Part shown: piece by piece, positions 13,161-51,433 of the stretch
How positions within the stretch are numbered: position 1 is the stretch's first letter
Layout of the letters: each line of letters begins with the position of its first letter
Source of the DNA: Olsenella sp. An270
Lineage (GTDB): Bacteria > Actinomycetota > Coriobacteriia > Coriobacteriales > Atopobiaceae
Direction of reading: 5' to 3'
NCBI RefSeq assembly: GCF_002159735.1
Contig: NZ_NFJF01000001.1
Span: 434,001-498,000 of the forward strand
Length of the DNA stretch: 64,000 nucleotides
Program-made: the position numbers and the translations under genes
The notes under the pieces: generated by a model
Seen by the model: the letters and a program-made list of their open reading frames with translations, nothing else
What the model was told of the DNA's origin: nothing
The model's database searches: none

Positions 13161-13250
13161 ACCTCCTCTACAGGCAGCAGAGGAAACGTTATCACAAAAC
13201 GCACAAATTCGTCCCGCGAAACTGCGTAGGTAACGAACTGGAAAGGCTCG

Positions 13251-33083: not shown

Positions 33084-33158
33084 ATAACACGCAGAATCCA
33101 ACTTTATCTTCAAAGTTATTTCGGTTTATGTATAAGTTAAGTTGATTCTGCGTGATAT
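33084..33158. repeat. 75-bp inverted-arm repeat, upstream copy of locus A
   Basis: The left arm ATAACACGCAGAATC (33084-33098) and right arm GATTCTGCGTGATAT (33144-33158) flank a 45-base AT-rich core (33099-33143). The core contains a nested AACTTT/AAAGTT hairpin and TATGTATAAG near its right end. It lies 76 bases before the start of the gene at 33235, in the same orientation relative to that gene as every other gene-linked copy. The gap from the rnj start (32920) to this repeat otherwise shows nothing I can name. Confidence 0.9.
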
Positions 33159-33234: not shown

Positions 33235-34380
33235 GTGATTCTCCCCCTTGACGGACCGAGCGCGCTACGTGCACTGCGGGTTTATCGCCGCACGGGCCAG
33301 GCCCTCCCCCAGGCGCGCATCGACCTTCCCGTGCCGGACCCCTCGCCTCAGCGCAGATGGACGGAGAGGCTCGTACCGCTTGATCTTCTCGCCCTGCCGT
33401 GCGCACCTTCGGAGGAGCACCCCCTGCACGTTCTGTCCCCCACCGCCATCGGCAGGCCCCAGGCGTCGTTTGTCAGGGCGCACGTCCTCGGAAAGCTGCC
33501 CGAGGGGTCGTTCGTCGACCTCGATAACGGCCTGGTCATACCGTGCCCGGAGCTCCTCTATCTGCGCATGGCCTCCCACCTGTCGCCCGAGGCACACGCG
33601 CTGCTGGCATACGAGCTCGCGGGCACGTACGCGCGCGACCCCGAGGACCCACGCCTCGGGACGTCCGTCTTTGGCGTCCCGCCCGTCACGAGCGTCGAGC
33701 GCATCAGGTCCTACCTCGCGCGCTACGGCAGGAGGAACGGGACGGCCCTCTGCGCTCACAACCTCGCCAGCGCGCGCGACAACGCCTGGTCGCCCATGGA
33801 GGCCCTCATCGCCCTCTTTGCGCTGCTTCCCCCGAGCGAGCAGGGGTACGGCCTCGGGCAGATCTCCCTCAACGTGAGACACGAGACCTCGGAGGACCTG
33901 GTCTTGTTGGGGGCGCGTGCGTCACGCGTGCCGGACATCGAGATCGTGGGAACGCACGTTGGGTTCAACTATGACGGCAGTCAGCATCTGAATCTCGAGG
34001 CAATTCTCGAGTCCGCTCGCACCGGTAAGGACGCCGAGAAGATCATGCGAGAAGTGCGCGAGAAGAGCCGCGACGACATCTTGAGAAACCGCGAGCTTAT
34101 GGCAATGGGACGTCTGATTCTCCCGGTCACGTCCGCCGACCTCTTCGCCCCGGGCGGCCTCGACGCCGTCATGCTCGAGGCGGCGCTTGCCCGGGAGGAA
34201 GTCGACGGCATAAGCGCCGCTGACGTCCGAAATCTCGTCGAGACGAAATCGTACGCCGAGCCGCGTCAGCAACTCATATGGTCGCTGCTCCCCTGGCGGC
34301 CGGGAGTGTCCCACGCGCGCAGGGTCCTCGAGGCCATGCCCTGGCGGAAGCCGGGCGTACGCTACTCGCTGCGGTGGTAG
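33235..34380 (+). CDS. Repeat-flanked AbiEi/DUF559-like putative nuclease-fold protein, paralogue A
   Basis: A 381-residue protein starting at GTG 33235 behind AAAGGAGG; its paralogue at 50207-51343 aligns from this residue. The two share ALRALRVYR, LPDPSP (VPDPSP here), RRWT, SFVDL, IPCPELL, PVTSVERI, DNAWSPMEA, LNVRH, RVPDIE, VGFNYD and RNREL. About residues 10-130 resemble the N-terminal region of AbiEi-like proteins, and 180-310 a DUF559/Vsr-like fold with Glu189, Asp234, an N-Y-D-G motif at 245-248, His251 and Asp280. The usual EYDG glutamate is Asn245, so activity is uncertain. No partner toxin gene is adjacent. The family call is recognition by eye, not a search result. Confidence 0.6.
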   Translation: MILPLDGPSALRALRVYRRTGQALPQARIDLPVPDPSPQRRWTERLVPLDLLALPCAPSEEHPLHVLSPTAIGRPQASFVRAHVLGKLPEGSFVDLDNGLVIPCPELLYLRMASHLSPEAHALLAYELAGTYARDPEDPRLGTSVFGVPPVTSVERIRSYLARYGRRNGTALCAHNLASARDNAWSPMEALIALFALLPPSEQGYGLGQISLNVRHETSEDLVLLGARASRVPDIEIVGTHVGFNYDGSQHLNLEAILESARTGKDAEKIMREVREKSRDDILRNRELMAMGRLILPVTSADLFAPGGLDAVMLEAALAREEVDGISAADVRNLVETKSYAEPRQQLIWSLLPWRPGVSHARRVLEAMPWRKPGVRYSLRW

Positions 34381-34429: not shown

Positions 34430-34504
34430 ATTACACGCAGAATCGACTTATTTCTCAAACAGCTCCTGGGAATATATAAAGTCAAAGGTGATTCTGCGTG
34501 ATAT
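34430..34504. repeat. 75-bp inverted-arm repeat, downstream copy of locus A
   Basis: The arms ATTACACGCAGAATC (34430-34444) and GATTCTGCGTGATAT (34490-34504) flank a 45-base core beginning GACTTATTTCTCAAA and carrying ATATATAAAG. It is in direct orientation with the copy at 33084 and begins 49 bases after the gene's stop. The element from outer edge to outer edge spans 33084-34504. Confidence 0.9.
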
Positions 34505-40001: not shown

Positions 40002-40957
40002 CGCTGCCCCCTCTCCTGCGCGTCGCGCTCATAGGCGTCCACGATGCGCGCGACCAGCGCGTGGCGGACGATGTCGTTGCGGTCGAGGTCGACGAAGGAG
40101 ACGCCCTCCATGCCCTCGAGGACGCGGCGGGCCGAGTCCAGGCCGCCCTCCCCCGGCAGATCGCGCTGCGAGGCGTCGCCGGTCACCACGAAGGTGGACG
40201 AGAAGCCCAGGCGCGTGAGGAACATCTTCATCTGCTCCGGCGTGGTGTTCTGCGCCTCGTCGAGGATCACGAAGGCGTTGTTGAAGGTGCGCCCGCGCAT
40301 GTAGGCGAGCGGCGCGATCTCTATGATGCCCTGCTCGATGAGGACGTTGCCCTTCTCGATGTCGGTCATGTCGAAGAGCGCGTCGTAGAGGGGGCGCACG
40401 TAGGGGTCGAGCTTCTCGGCGAGCGTTCCCGGGAGGAAGCCGAGCGACTCGCCGGCCTCCACGACGGGGCGCGCGAGCACGATGCGCCCGACCTCGCGGC
40501 GCTTGAGGGCCGCGACCGCCATCGCCATGGCGAGGTAGGTCTTGCCGGTGCCCGCGGGGCCCAGGCCAAAGGTGACCGTGCTCCTGCGGATGGCGTCGAC
40601 GTAGCGCTTCTGGCCGGCCGTCTTTGGCCTGATGGCGCGGCCGCGGAAGGTGAGCAGGATGTCGTCGCCGGCGGTGACGGCGCGCTCGGCTCCGTGGCGG
40701 ACCTGCTCGATGATGACGTCCACCTCGCCGGGGGTGGGGCTCTCCCCCATCTCGACGAGCCGGATCAGGCGCGAGAAGACCGAGGTCACCTGGTCGACGA
40801 CGTCGGCGGGCCCAGAGACGCTCACGATGTTGCCGCGGACGGAGACCATGGCGTCGAAGCCCGCCTCGACCCGTCGGAGCAGGGAGTCGGCCGGGCCCAT
40901 GAGCGCGGTCGGGTCGACTGAGTCTGGGATGGTGAGACGAACCTGCGTTGGCTCCAT
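39998..40957 (-). CDS. phoH: PhoH family ATPase (YbeZ-like)
   Basis: A 319-residue protein with Walker A in [13 protein letters not shown] (about 125-137) and Walker B in [17 protein letters not shown], with [15 protein letters not shown] between; these are the hallmarks of PhoH/YbeZ. It is thought to act with YbeY in rRNA processing. The start is ATG 40957 behind CCAGGAGGAAC; the open frame further upstream runs into the tandem repeat and the solo 75-bp repeat and is not coding. Confidence 0.95.
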
Positions 40958-41040
40958 GTTCCTCCTGGGACGGCTACGGCTCTGATGATAGACCAACCGC
41001 GGCCCCGTCTCGCCCGTGGCCCTCGGCGGCGCGGGCGCTC

Positions 41041-41091
41041 GCGCTTCTCGCCCCGTCGCGCTTCTCGCCCCGTCGCGCTTCTCGCCCCGTC
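41041..41091. repeat. 17-bp tandem repeat, three perfect copies
   Basis: The unit GCGCTTCTCGCCCCGTC occurs three times without a change at 41041-41057, 41058-41074 and 41075-41091. It lies in the phoH leader between the solo 75-bp repeat and the gene. Confidence 0.95.
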
Positions 41092-41101
41092 GCTCAAATC
41101 C

Positions 41102-41178
41102 GATAACACGCAGAATCAAGCACAGCTTTCTATATCCGCAGATGGGTTTTGAGAAAAAAGTCGATTCTGCGTGTTATC
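41102..41178. repeat. Solo copy of the 75-bp inverted-arm repeat (locus B)
   Basis: Perfect 16-base arms, GATAACACGCAGAATC (41102-41117) and its exact complement (41163-41178), flank a 45-base core. Read on the minus strand, the core starts GACTTTTTTCTCAAA like the locus A downstream copy, and ends with CTGCGGATATA and GTGCTT like the locus C copies. No paralogue gene is attached. It lies between phoH and mtaB (gap 40958-41236, no gene seen). Confidence 0.93.
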
Positions 41179-41236: not shown

Positions 41237-42505
41237 CTACAGCGGCTCGGCGAGGAGGGTCGCGTCGTCGCGGACATCGGTCAGACGCACCGGGACGAGG
41301 CTGTCAACGGGAATCGAGGGGTCGAGAAGGACATCGAAGAGCCCTCCCGTGACGCCGCGGCCCGGGTACTGCACCACGGCGAGGTCCCGGGCGCCCACCA
41401 GCCGCCGCGCCTCGGCGAGGCGCATCTCGTCGGCGAGCTCGCGGGACCGCTCGCCGCGCCGGGCCATGACGTGGGGATCGACCTGGCCCTCCATCGTCGC
41501 GGCGGGCGTGCCGGGACGCCGCGAGTAGCGGAACACGTGCATCTTGGCGAAGCGCATCTCGCGGCAGAACTCGAGGGAGCGCTCGAAGTCGTCGTCGGTC
41601 TCGCCGGGGAAGCCTACGATGAGGTCGGTGCCGAGCGCGACGCCCGGGAGGTGCTCGCGGGCGGTCTCCACCACGCGCCTGAAGTCGTCCGTGCGGTAGA
41701 CGCGCGCCATGCGCCTGAGCGTCTCGTCGCAGCCCGCCTGGAGGCAGACGTGCAGAAACGGCGCGATGCGCCCGTCAGCGAGCGCCATCGTGCGGCAGAG
41801 CTCGTCGGTGACGTCGGGCGGCTCGATCGAGGAGAGCCGGACGCGCTCCACGTCGGTCTCCCCGAGGACGAGGTCGAGAAGGGCGGGCAGGGCGAGCTCG
41901 CGGCCCGCGCGGTCCTCGGCGCGATAGCTTCCCAGGTTGATACCCGTGAGCACGACCTCGCGGGCGCCTCTCGCCCGGGCCGCGCGCACGGCGTCGAGGA
42001 CGTCCTCGGGCGCCATCGAGCGGGCGGCGCCGCGGGCGCGCCACACGATGCAGTAGGTGCAGCGGTTGTCGCAGCCGTCCTGGATCTTGATGCCGGGCCT
42101 GGTGCGACCCGTCGGCGTGGGGGCGTCGCAGGAGGGGCTTGGCTCGCGCGCGTCCCCGGCGAGCCCGAGCGCCTCGGCCGCGATGGCGGCGACGGCGGCC
42201 TTGTCCTTCTCGACCCGCACGTTGGGAGCGAGCGCGGCGAGCTCGTCGGCGAAGAGGTTGGCCACGCAGCCGGTCGCGATCACGAGCGGCGTCGACGGCA
42301 GCGACGCCGCGCGGCGGACGGCCTTCCTCGTCTTGGCCTCCGCCTCGCCGGTCACGGCGCACGTGTTGACGATCACGACGCGCGCCTCGCGCTCCGGCGT
42401 GAGGACGGCACCCGCGCGCTCCAGGTCGAGCGCCATGTGGTCGAGCTCGACGCGGTTGACGCGGCACCCGAGATTGATGAGCGCCACGCCGTGGGACTCG
42501 CTCAC
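41237..42505 (-). CDS. mtaB: tRNA threonylcarbamoyladenosine methylthiotransferase MtaB
   Basis: A 422-residue radical-SAM enzyme that converts t6A37 to ms2t6A37 in tRNAs reading ANN codons. [14 protein letters not shown] opens the UPF0004 domain, CDNRCTYC in an IVWRARG context is the SAM-cluster triad, and a short TRAM domain ends the protein. GTG 42505 overlaps the dnaJ stop as GTGA. The dnaJ-mtaB-phoH order is conserved in Gram-positives. Confidence 0.94.
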
Positions 42506-46767: not shown

Positions 46768-46854
46768 CGCGACTTTTGCGGCCGCAAAAGTCGCGTGAGA
46801 AATCACGTTTTCCCAGTTGAGCAAAAAACTTAGCCCAGTTTTGCGGCCGCAAAA
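46768..46854. repeat. Palindromic repeat pair between dusB and hemW
   Basis: A 28-base perfect palindrome (46768-46795) is centred on GCGGCCGC and flanked by TTTT and AAAA. A second copy of the core TTTTGCGGCCGCAAAA lies at 46839-46854. After each core the sequence continues GTC-R-CG-Y-GAG, so the two are direct repeats. A small CGTGA/TCACG hairpin (46794-46807) follows the first copy. The 137-base gap shows no gene. Confidence 0.9.
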
Positions 46855-46879
46855 GTCACGCGAGCCGCTGGCACACACT

Positions 46880-50135: not shown

Positions 50136-50210
50136 TTTACGCACAAAATCAAGCACCGCATTTTATATCCGCAGGTCAATTTAACTCACATGTACGACTT
50201 TGTGCGTTAT
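50136..50210. repeat. 75-bp inverted-arm repeat, downstream copy of locus C
   Basis: The arms TTTACGCACAAAATC (50136-50150) and GACTTTGTGCGTTAT (50196-50210) flank a 45-base core containing TTTTATATCCGCAGGT and CACATGTAC. It lies 28 bases beyond the rpsT terminator. Its right arm supplies the TAA stop codon of the minus-strand gene at 50207-51343. Confidence 0.9.
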
Positions 50211-51343
50211 TGCCCGGTGACAAGATGCCCCCACGGCCTCCAGGCAGCAAACTTACGAGCATGCCACGACCCGGGCCTCCACGGCAGGAGCGACCAGACG
50301 AGCTCCTGGCGCCGCTCGCTCTGAGACCCCGCAGACACGACTGCGCGAACGTCCTGCAACACGGTTCCCCCAACCAGCTCCTGCGCCGCCATCGCCGCCT
50401 GGAGCATGACGGCGTCAAGACCCCTGGGAGCAAACAGGTCCTCCGAGGTGACGGGGAGTATCACCCAGCCAGACGCTACAAGCTCGCGATTTCTCCTGAG
50501 GTCGTCGACGTACTTCTCGCGAACCTTGGCCGCTGCACGCACGGAGTCCTCCTCCGTCTGCGCCCCGGCAATCGAGTCGAGGTCAAGATGATCGTGACTA
50601 TCGTAGTTGAAGCCCACGCGCAGACCCCTGAGCTCGATGTCAGGGACACGCGAGTCCCTGCATCCCAGCGCGACCAGCTCGGGAGTCGCGCCATGTCGTA
50701 CGTTGAGGTCGATCTCCCCAAAGCCATAGCCCAGCTCCTCCGGGGGCAGACGAGCCATGAGGGCAACCACCGCCTCCATGGGTGACCAGGCGTTGTCTGC
50801 AACATACGTGAGGTTTCGCCGGGCGAGAAGAACGCTCTTCCTACGGCCCACCCTGTCGAGATACTCACCGATGCGCTCCACGGAGGTCACAGGAGCAACG
50901 TCATAGGTCACAGCACCGAGGCGCGGGTCGGATGCCGAGCGCACGTACGTCCCGCACAGCTCATAGCCGAGAAGCGCGTGCACGGCTGGCTCCATGACCT
51001 CCACGAGCTCAAGGAAGAGCAGTTCCGGACAGGGAATGGAAATGCCGTCGCCGAGGTCGACGAACGATTCCTCAGGCAGGCTGCTCGCGCGCATGCGGCA
51101 GGAGACGAAGCTCCCCCGCAGGCGATCCTCCTGTCGGGGCACGACCACCTCGATCGGCTCCGAGGAGCTCGGCGGATGTTCGAGCGCAAGGGGCTCGAGC
51201 GGAATCAGGCCTGACGTCCAGCGCCGACGCGGGCTCGGATCAGGCAAGGCCAGATCGCAGCGGACGCTGGGCAGGGGCCGCCCGGAAGCACGGTACACGC
51301 GAAGCGCACGAAGCGCCGTGAGTCGATCGAACGTAAGGGGCAT
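50207..51343 (-). CDS. Repeat-flanked AbiEi/DUF559-like putative nuclease-fold protein, paralogue C
   Basis: A 378-residue paralogue of the product of 33235-34380, similar over its whole length. The start is ATG 51343 behind GCGGGAGG, only 15 bases inside the repeat arm. Shared blocks are LTALRALRVYR, ESFVDLGDG, IPCPELLFL, PVTSVERIGEYL, DNAWSPMEA, DLNVRHG, RVPDIEL, VGFNYD, NRELVASG and VWSLLPWRPG. Putative fold residues are Glu190, Asp235, Asn246-Tyr-Asp248 and His252, with Asn again replacing the DUF559 glutamate. The stop codon lies in the downstream repeat arm, so gene and repeats form one compact unit (50136-51433) inserted between rpsT and holA. No toxin partner is visible. Confidence 0.6.
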   Translation of the reverse strand: MPLTFDRLTALRALRVYRASGRPLPSVRCDLALPDPSPRRRWTSGLIPLEPLALEHPPSSSEPIEVVVPRQEDRLRGSFVSCRMRASSLPEESFVDLGDGISIPCPELLFLELVEVMEPAVHALLGYELCGTYVRSASDPRLGAVTYDVAPVTSVERIGEYLDRVGRRKSVLLARRNLTYVADNAWSPMEAVVALMARLPPEELGYGFGEIDLNVRHGATPELVALGCRDSRVPDIELRGLRVGFNYDSHDHLDLDSIAGAQTEEDSVRAAAKVREKYVDDLRRNRELVASGWVILPVTSEDLFAPRGLDAVMLQAAMAAQELVGGTVLQDVRAVVSAGSQSERRQELVWSLLPWRPGSWHARKFAAWRPWGHLVTGQ

Positions 51344-51358
51344 GGCGCACCTCCCGCA

Positions 51359-51433
51359 ACAACGCACAAAATCAAGCACCACTTTTTATATTCGCAGGTG
51401 AATTTAACGCACATGTACGATTTTGTGCGTTAT
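51359..51433. repeat. 75-bp inverted-arm repeat, upstream copy of locus C
   Basis: The arms ACAACGCACAAAATC (51359-51373) and GATTTTGTGCGTTAT (51419-51433) have 13 perfectly paired bases around a 45-base core almost identical to that of the copy at 50136, with which it is in direct orientation. On the minus strand the core carries GCGAATATAAAAAG, a possible -10 region, ahead of the gene's ribosome site. Confidence 0.9.

Follow-up and report, generated by a model that had tools for sequence, protein, structure and literature searches.

The gap between mtaB and phoH in the genome of Olsenella sp. An270 contains a palindromic repeat with perfect arms and no gene of its own, which raises the question of what kind of element this is and how it came to lie there. 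The 64,000-nucleotide stretch of DNA analysed here (the window) holds further copies of the repeat on both sides of two related genes, and its relevant features are the following.

33084–33158, plus strand: upstream copy at locus A, type 1 arms, found with the covariance model
33235–34380, plus strand: locus A gene, encoding a predicted AbiEi-like plus Vsr-like nuclease-fold protein, between rnj and pnp
34430–34504, plus strand: downstream copy at locus A, found with the covariance model
41102–41178, minus strand: solo palindromic element, 16-bp perfect arms, 45-nt core with CATCTGCGGATATAGAAA
46771–46857, minus strand: possibly related palindrome, 19-bp perfect arms (ACTTTTGCGGCCGCAAAA type), core CTCAACTGGGAAAA on the minus strand
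50136–50210, minus strand: downstream copy at locus C, found with the covariance model
50207–51343, minus strand: locus C gene, adjoining holA
51359–51433, minus strand: upstream copy at locus C, type 2 arms, ending 15 nt before the start codon

On the minus strand, the element upstream of phoH consists of GATAACACGCAGAATC, a core of 45 nt and GATTCTGCGTGTTATC, with a total length of 77 nt, and 16 of its 16 arm positions pair, which bears out the perfect 16-base arms of the preliminary description; about 0.004 perfect 16-bp arm pairs with a spacer of 30–60 nt are expected by chance per 64 kb of the same composition. It is situated between mtaB (end at 41237) and phoH (start at 40957), both encoded on the minus strand, and no gene is seen within it, again as described, the upstream extension of the phoH reading frame reaching into the repeat. 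A covariance model built from 40 copies detected five copies in the window, i.e. the phoH-gap solo and both flanks of the genes at loci A and C, and gave the top score (77.2 bits) to the solo, which is itself part of the alignment behind the model. The characterisation of its arms as the best preserved is correct within its own repeat family in the window but not beyond it, since the palindrome of another type at 46771–46857 has perfect arms of 19 bp. The latter adjoins hemW, has no AbiEi-Vsr-like gene beside it, carries the self-complementary TTTTGCGGCCGCAAAA in its arms and a CAACTGGG core, and matches the covariance model marginally (E 0.88); it is perhaps a related element type. A lone arm-like AACGCACAAATTC at position 13198 of the window is without a partner arm and probably occurs there by chance.

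The core of the phoH-gap repeat had been called a mosaic, and this was confirmed: its left part, GACTTTTTTCTCAAA, equals that of the locus A downstream copy with one difference, and CTGCGGATATA together with GTGCTT is shared with the locus C copies. Mosaicism is also found among the copies upstream of phoH in relatives, that of G023 combining the same left half with a right half GTTGCTGAAGGTAATTC and those of G019 and G026 carrying GTTGTGCTTGATTC and GTTGTGTTTGATTC. Three of the four combinations of left and right core halves were found among 24 copies with type 1 arms (7, 4, 4 and 0 copies, respectively), nine copies having neither right half.

In the 2.01-Mb genome, BLAST found 17 copies, and the distance from AAC to GTT was exactly 71 nt in every one of them, the search having accepted spacings of 61 to 94 nt; despite this constant distance their cores differ widely. 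The covariance model places copies at 22 distinct sites in the genome, of which 18 are solos outside loci A and C, and these 18 appear to be intergenic in a simple reading-frame screen. Two arm types prevail, AACACGCAGAATC (type 1, as at locus A) and AACGCACAAAATC (type 2, as at locus C), and a few solos in the genome carry other arms. The genus comparison comprised 31 genomes, one per species, and copies are present in 28 of these among the matches listed, from which 100 copies from 17 genomes were fetched (17 from G023, three from G019 and none from G026). An abutting direct repeat of at least 2 nt was seen in only 4 of 118 copies, so that there is no target-site duplication. Different copies in G015 and G004 (L330, L332 and L336) resemble one another for about 30 nt beyond the element as well (GGCGCCAGGCCAACCAA type), which suggests that duplication may there have covered more than the element itself. 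L153 (query 2919–2972) contains a further, separate short repeat, about 34 nt long, for which G003 and G004 have dozens of matches on either strand.

Within 100 nt of the 118 copies, the left flank contains TTCTCG in 54 and CGAGAA in 7 cases, the right flank contains CGAGAA in 72 and TTCTCG in 11, and 37 copies have TTCTCG on the left and CGAGAA on the right as an inverted pair; the background densities window-wide, coding sequence included, are approximately 0.13 and 0.10 per 100 nt. From this bias it follows that the copies tend to be nested in a second palindrome of the intergenic regions, possibly a preferred target, possibly the outer part of the unit. The motif often occurs in tandem, as at 41040–41090 (region 41040–41100).

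The genes at loci A and C are each bracketed by two copies of the repeat and encode proteins that are 54% identical. The locus A gene is likely to start with GTG after AAAGGAGG, and the stop codon of the locus C gene (50207–50209) is located inside the downstream element, supplied by its ATAAC end; on the other side of locus C, beyond the gene, lies what we take by eye, from its sequence, to be rpsT. No match for either protein was obtained in Pfam, NCBIfam, PADLOC or PHROGs up to E 1, and an alignment profile had none among PDB sequences up to E 10. Relatives at E ≤ 1e-40 occur in 26 of the 31 genomes of the genus, and at E ≤ 1e-15 in 330 of 395 genomes of the order, many of the latter being distant. 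Ten of the 12 family members in the present genome are without a repeat of type 1 or type 2 arms. In the 45 loci checked, stops occur in L130, L133 and L143, with L123, L131, L135 and L136 partial, left out of alignment A4.

Examination of 30 loci demonstrated that most of the genes have a palindrome just downstream and often a second one upstream, and that both flanks of one locus have the same or nearly the same arms. The arms vary between loci (AACACGCAGAATC, AACGCGCACGGTT, AACGGGCAAAATT, AGTGTACATAATCC, AACGCGCACTCGTGC and others), and the core CAACTG(G/C)G..ATA recurs. The upstream copy is inverted at several loci, so the flanks are not always direct repeats. At 44 named loci from Olsenella, Thermophilibacter and other Coriobacteriia (47 named loci, L133, L135 and L145 being left out of the flank count), a palindrome lies beside the gene in 38, on both sides in 19, downstream only in 16 and upstream only in 3, with none in 6, as counted without a shuffled control. 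Outside the genus, at 26 loci taken from the top protein matches in the order, a palindrome was found at 17, on both sides in five, versus 0 of 52 letter-shuffled segments. Some of these palindromes, L142 in the former set and L415 and L430 in the latter, may be plain hairpins. At L140, two palindromes with the same arms stand in tandem downstream of the nuclease-like gene.

From an alignment of 40 sequences, AlphaFold2 produced a model of the locus C protein with a mean pLDDT of 89.2 and a pTM of 0.87. Foldseek alone yielded no match at E ≤ 0.001, and the fold assignment therefore rests on realigned Foldseek candidates. Superposition places residues ~186–322 with Vsr endonuclease (1cw0; Z 9.3, 118 residues, 2.9 Å) and the nuclease domain of I-Bth0305I (3r3p; Z 8.9), TnsA (1f1z) reaching Z 5.9, and two mitoribosome chains score like the nucleases over the same part (9i05, Z 8.9; 9g6k, Z 8.3). 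For residues 1–183 the AbiEi antitoxin 6y8q gave Z 7.3 over 118 residues and Rv2827c (1zel) Z 4.5, in a range (Z below 8) where a match can reflect a common arrangement. The protein is accordingly predicted by the model to consist of an AbiEi-like half and a Vsr-like nuclease half. Residues Glu190, Asp235, Asn246 and Tyr247 are invariant in 40 of 40 sequences and His252 is found in 38 of 40; Glu190, Asp235 and His252 may be the catalytic set. Pfam assigns none of 23 family members to a transposase family; its one listed hit is DUF6437, in a single member (E 0.12).

The likeness to AbiEi of the type IV toxin–antitoxin systems lies in the predicted fold of residues 1–183. Proteins of the AbiEi family attach to inverted repeats close to the gene that encodes them, and both AbiEi and Rv2827c repress their own promoters in this way, as described in PMC7319586. 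Unlike AbiEi, the genes at loci A and C have no toxin gene (AbiEii nucleotidyltransferase) seen beside them, PADLOC being without a match for both proteins, and they carry a fused nuclease-fold half and are associated with palindromes that lie on both sides and are scattered elsewhere. The second half has the predicted fold of the Vsr/EDxHD nucleases, with conserved acidic and histidine positions, but differs from them in that the gene is free-standing, none being seen in an intron or intein, and is tied to palindromes.

The manner in which the arms change bears on the level at which they are maintained. In the 40-copy alignment, 94.1% of the arm cells pair, 99 cells having changed on both sides and 9 on one side. 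Among 1624 arm pairs from 116 distinct copies, the departures from Watson–Crick pairing were 39 G.T, 40 A.C and 14 others. RNA pairing is expected to favour G.U over A.C, and because the two departures are equally frequent the arms seem to be selected as DNA and not as RNA. Furthermore, 48 of 116 copies have an inner third half-site, always at the same offset, in which the inverted arm end recurs and whose letters track the arm at the variable positions (A/A in 23, G/G in 20 and mixed in 5 at an example position); 7 or 8 of its 8 letters match in 41 of 118 copies, with 0 at the other offsets tested (17 to 39). Three co-varying half-sites of this kind point, as far as sequence comparison can tell, to recognition of the arms by a protein.

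Whether the solos go with the genes resident in the same genome can be seen from their arms. Out of the 118 copies, 11 from genomes without a listed gene flank and 13 equal to a listed flank were dropped (the dropped G017 copy L294 equals a flank of G021), and the gene-flank list was compiled by hand and covers part of each genome's genes. For the resulting 94 solos in 13 genomes, the mean best arm distance to a gene flank of the same genome is 3.97 of 28, and permutation of the genomes, with their kinship ignored, gave a mean of 7.71 and no value as low as 3.97 in 2000 permutations. Of the 94 solos, 62 lie within 4 differences of gene-flank arms of the same genome, and 32 lie more than 4 from any used. 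The fit is good in G013, G021, G004, G023 and G000 and poor in G027 (0 of 8), G019 (0 of 3), G030 (2 of 9), G017 (5 of 12) and G022 (0 of 1); G024 has 21 model matches, both strands counted and among the matches listed, and no relative of protein P0001 at 1e-40. The ill-fitting solos may be relics of genes since lost, or of genes whose arms have since changed, the latter option being raised because the element at the C site of G030 pairs AATGCGCTCGATC arms with a core resembling that of G000.

Comparison of corresponding sites between species bears directly on the origin of the phoH-gap repeat. The gap is readable in 29 of the 31 genomes (G005 and G010 were left out) and contains the solo in G000, G023, G019 and G026 and an element with TAGTACGCACAGTTC arms in G018, whereas 24 of the 29 are without an element of this type. 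Contig ends apart, the 31 genomes have no gene relative at E ≤ 1e-40 closer than 1.5 kb to phoH or to rluD. The preliminary description had named, as the case against a recombination origin, a solo carried by all relatives with no filled version in any strain; the absence of a filled version is what was found, the presence in all relatives is not. All 29 readable genomes, whether or not they carry the repeat, have a TATCATC box 32–60 nt ahead of the phoH start; the solo itself is about 145 nt before the start and away from the box, and a consensus scan of the gap gave no promoter-like and no terminator-like site. The suggestion that the repeat had been recruited as promoter or leader of phoH thus found no support.

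Upstream of rluD (this name and lspA are our assumptions from the sequences), 30 genomes were compared, G005 being left out and short gaps and palindromes of other types being judged by eye. Type 1 elements are present there in G000, G023, G026 and G011, an element with AACGCGCACCATTTG arms in G017, and palindromes of still other types in G003, G004, G015, G019, G027, G028 and G030; in eight genomes (G024, G016, G013, G012, G018, G001, G020 and G025) lspA and rluD are contiguous, overlapping or separated by a few bases. Palindromes with unrelated arms occur upstream of rluD in other species, at L196, L197, L198 and L206, with CGAGTCTGTAC (twice in tandem) and GCATCGTCTGTATTT (with a CCTGCG-like core). 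Of 28 genomes compared at the A site (G019 was left out owing to a contig end, G011 and G018 for want of a match), G000, G023 and G026 contain the gene together with its elements. The other 25, which lack the gene, yielded no solo of these arm types; in G028 and G029 the site holds longer palindromes whose arms differ and whose core is CAACTGGG-like. At the C site (G015 and G027 left out), the gene is found in G000, G030 and G021 and its start is visible, by eye, in G017 and G018; in G024 the site shows, by eye, a broken element and no gene before the contig end. One solo site of G004 could be set against G003, which is without the element: the flanks are 88% and 91% identical and adjacent in G003, and the extra sequence in G004 is about 150 nt including the element, not 75. 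Such a difference means that segments come and go.

Among known systems, the family most resembles the REPINs moved by RAYTs, which are palindromic intergenic elements in tens of copies with a low-copy, distinct gene bracketed by its own type, as set out in parts of PMC3116915 and PMC8266576. Common to both are a gene bracketed by palindromes of a type scattered in the same genome (62 of the 94 solos match, 32 do not), several palindrome types per genome and the spread of small elements. RAYTs, however, are HUH (Y1) proteins related to IS200/IS605, and the partner here, predicted to be AbiEi-like plus Vsr-like, is not recognisable as HUH either in Pfam or by fold, both halves of the model matching other folds. 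Only 4 of 118 copies have the GTAG tag of REPINs, or its complement, no farther than 12 nt from an end (CGTC/GACG is so placed in 23 of 118, a count made against a GC-rich background without a control), and, unlike in REPINs, the arms vary and the core CAACTG(G/C)G..ATA recurs. The family is REPIN-like and yet lacks two defining features of REPINs, because its partner is not recognisably HUH and the GTAG tag is missing. The phoH solo is an ordinary member of this unusual family. Among the open-access papers listed in literature searches, none dealt with palindromes or MITEs in Olsenella, Thermophilibacter or Coriobacteria, with AbiEi and DUF559 or with miniature inverted repeats in Olsenella. 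Integron attC sites were considered as well. These, too, are palindromic sites with ...AAC / GTT... ends beside single genes; the present elements differ in that their ends, by eye, are not constant but vary among subfamilies (e.g. AGTGTAC arms) and in that no cassette arrays were seen, and attC was rejected.

Taken together, the reading we favour, with about even credence, is that the repeat is non-autonomous and REPIN-like and that the AbiEi-Vsr protein mobilises it in trans. In such a scheme, a few genes for an AbiEi plus Vsr-type nuclease would carry cognate copies on their own flanks; the protein would recognise the arms as DNA, at both outer half-sites and in many cases at an inner half-site too, and would cut at or beside folded or paired copies; repair or replication would then put new copies into intergenic gaps, so that the gene would long stay at its site and the solos would spread. 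Sequence comparison establishes that the family exists and has a fixed length, that the gene is often bracketed, that arms co-vary within a locus, that arm changes are DNA-like and that elements are present or absent in the same gaps; that the protein binds the arms, cuts and moves the solos is what we infer. The preliminary description had offered an independently mobilised, non-autonomous unit as one option, and this option gains from the 18 dispersed solos, from arm types that partly track the resident genes and from the different-arm elements occupying the same gaps upstream of phoH and rluD in different species.

The other option of that description, a remnant like a solo LTR from which recombination of direct flanks has removed the gene and one repeat, could draw on the two direct copies present at each of loci A and C. 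It is very unlikely given the lack of gene relatives near phoH and rluD in the 31 genomes, the lack of solos of these arm types at the A site in the 25 genomes without the gene (each species being represented by one genome), flanks that are not always direct repeats, and the occurrence of 18 solos against two genes. To judge from the sequences, therefore, the phoH-gap repeat is probably neither the product of such recombination nor a phoH promoter. A hairpin acting in transcripts as terminator, stability or processing signal is very unlikely as well: the predicted transcript of the repeat does fold far better than shuffles (z −5.4), as any long palindrome must, but the equal numbers of G.T and A.C are not what RNA pairing should leave, and the inner half-site, which competes with the stem, nevertheless tracks the arms. 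A terminator and a known RNA family were rejected, as the phoH gap has no terminator-like site and Rfam gave no match in the window at gathering score.

A MITE of some conventional transposase unrecognised here, with the nuclease-like gene as a passenger, would account for the short terminal inverted repeats, the small non-coding units and the many copies, intergenic by the simple screen. It is nonetheless quite unlikely, since target-site duplications are wanting (4 of 118) and the gene has a whole palindrome on a flank in place of one end on each side; moreover, in many species and two families the gene goes together with palindromes whose arms are specific to the locus, which is unlike a passenger. 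Somewhat less improbable, though still unlikely, is a regulatory role, in which the protein would be an AbiEi-like autorepressor, the flanking copies its operators and the solos sites spread by recombination or belonging to a regulon. The autorepression of AbiEi and Rv2827c through inverted repeats (again according to sections of PMC7319586), the locus C upstream copy ending 15 nt before the start codon, the apparently intergenic solos and the DNA-like arm changes would all fit such a role. It offers no obvious use for a repressor at the 16 of 44 loci with a downstream palindrome only and leaves the nuclease-like half with its conserved residues unaccounted for; the orientation of the upstream copy varies, and the phoH solo lies about 145 nt ahead of the start, away from the TATCATC box, and is absent from that gap in 24 of 29 genomes.

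If mobilisation in trans by the AbiEi-Vsr protein is accepted, a broader proposition can be put forward tentatively and with somewhat less assurance, namely that these elements represent a class of selfish DNA in which a Vsr-type (EDxHD-like) nuclease with an AbiEi-like specificity domain, and not a DDE, HUH or recombinase enzyme, spreads palindromes, domain and arms co-diversifying into several distinct pairs per Coriobacteriales genome. A nuclease driving palindromes in this way would mean that short repeats can arise without the HUH enzymes that underlie REPs. It would, if true, provide dozens of natural protein/site pairs in which specificity residues could be read against arm letters, explain part of the intergenic sequence in these genomes, and point to a function for a large family of orphan proteins with relatives in most genomes of the order.
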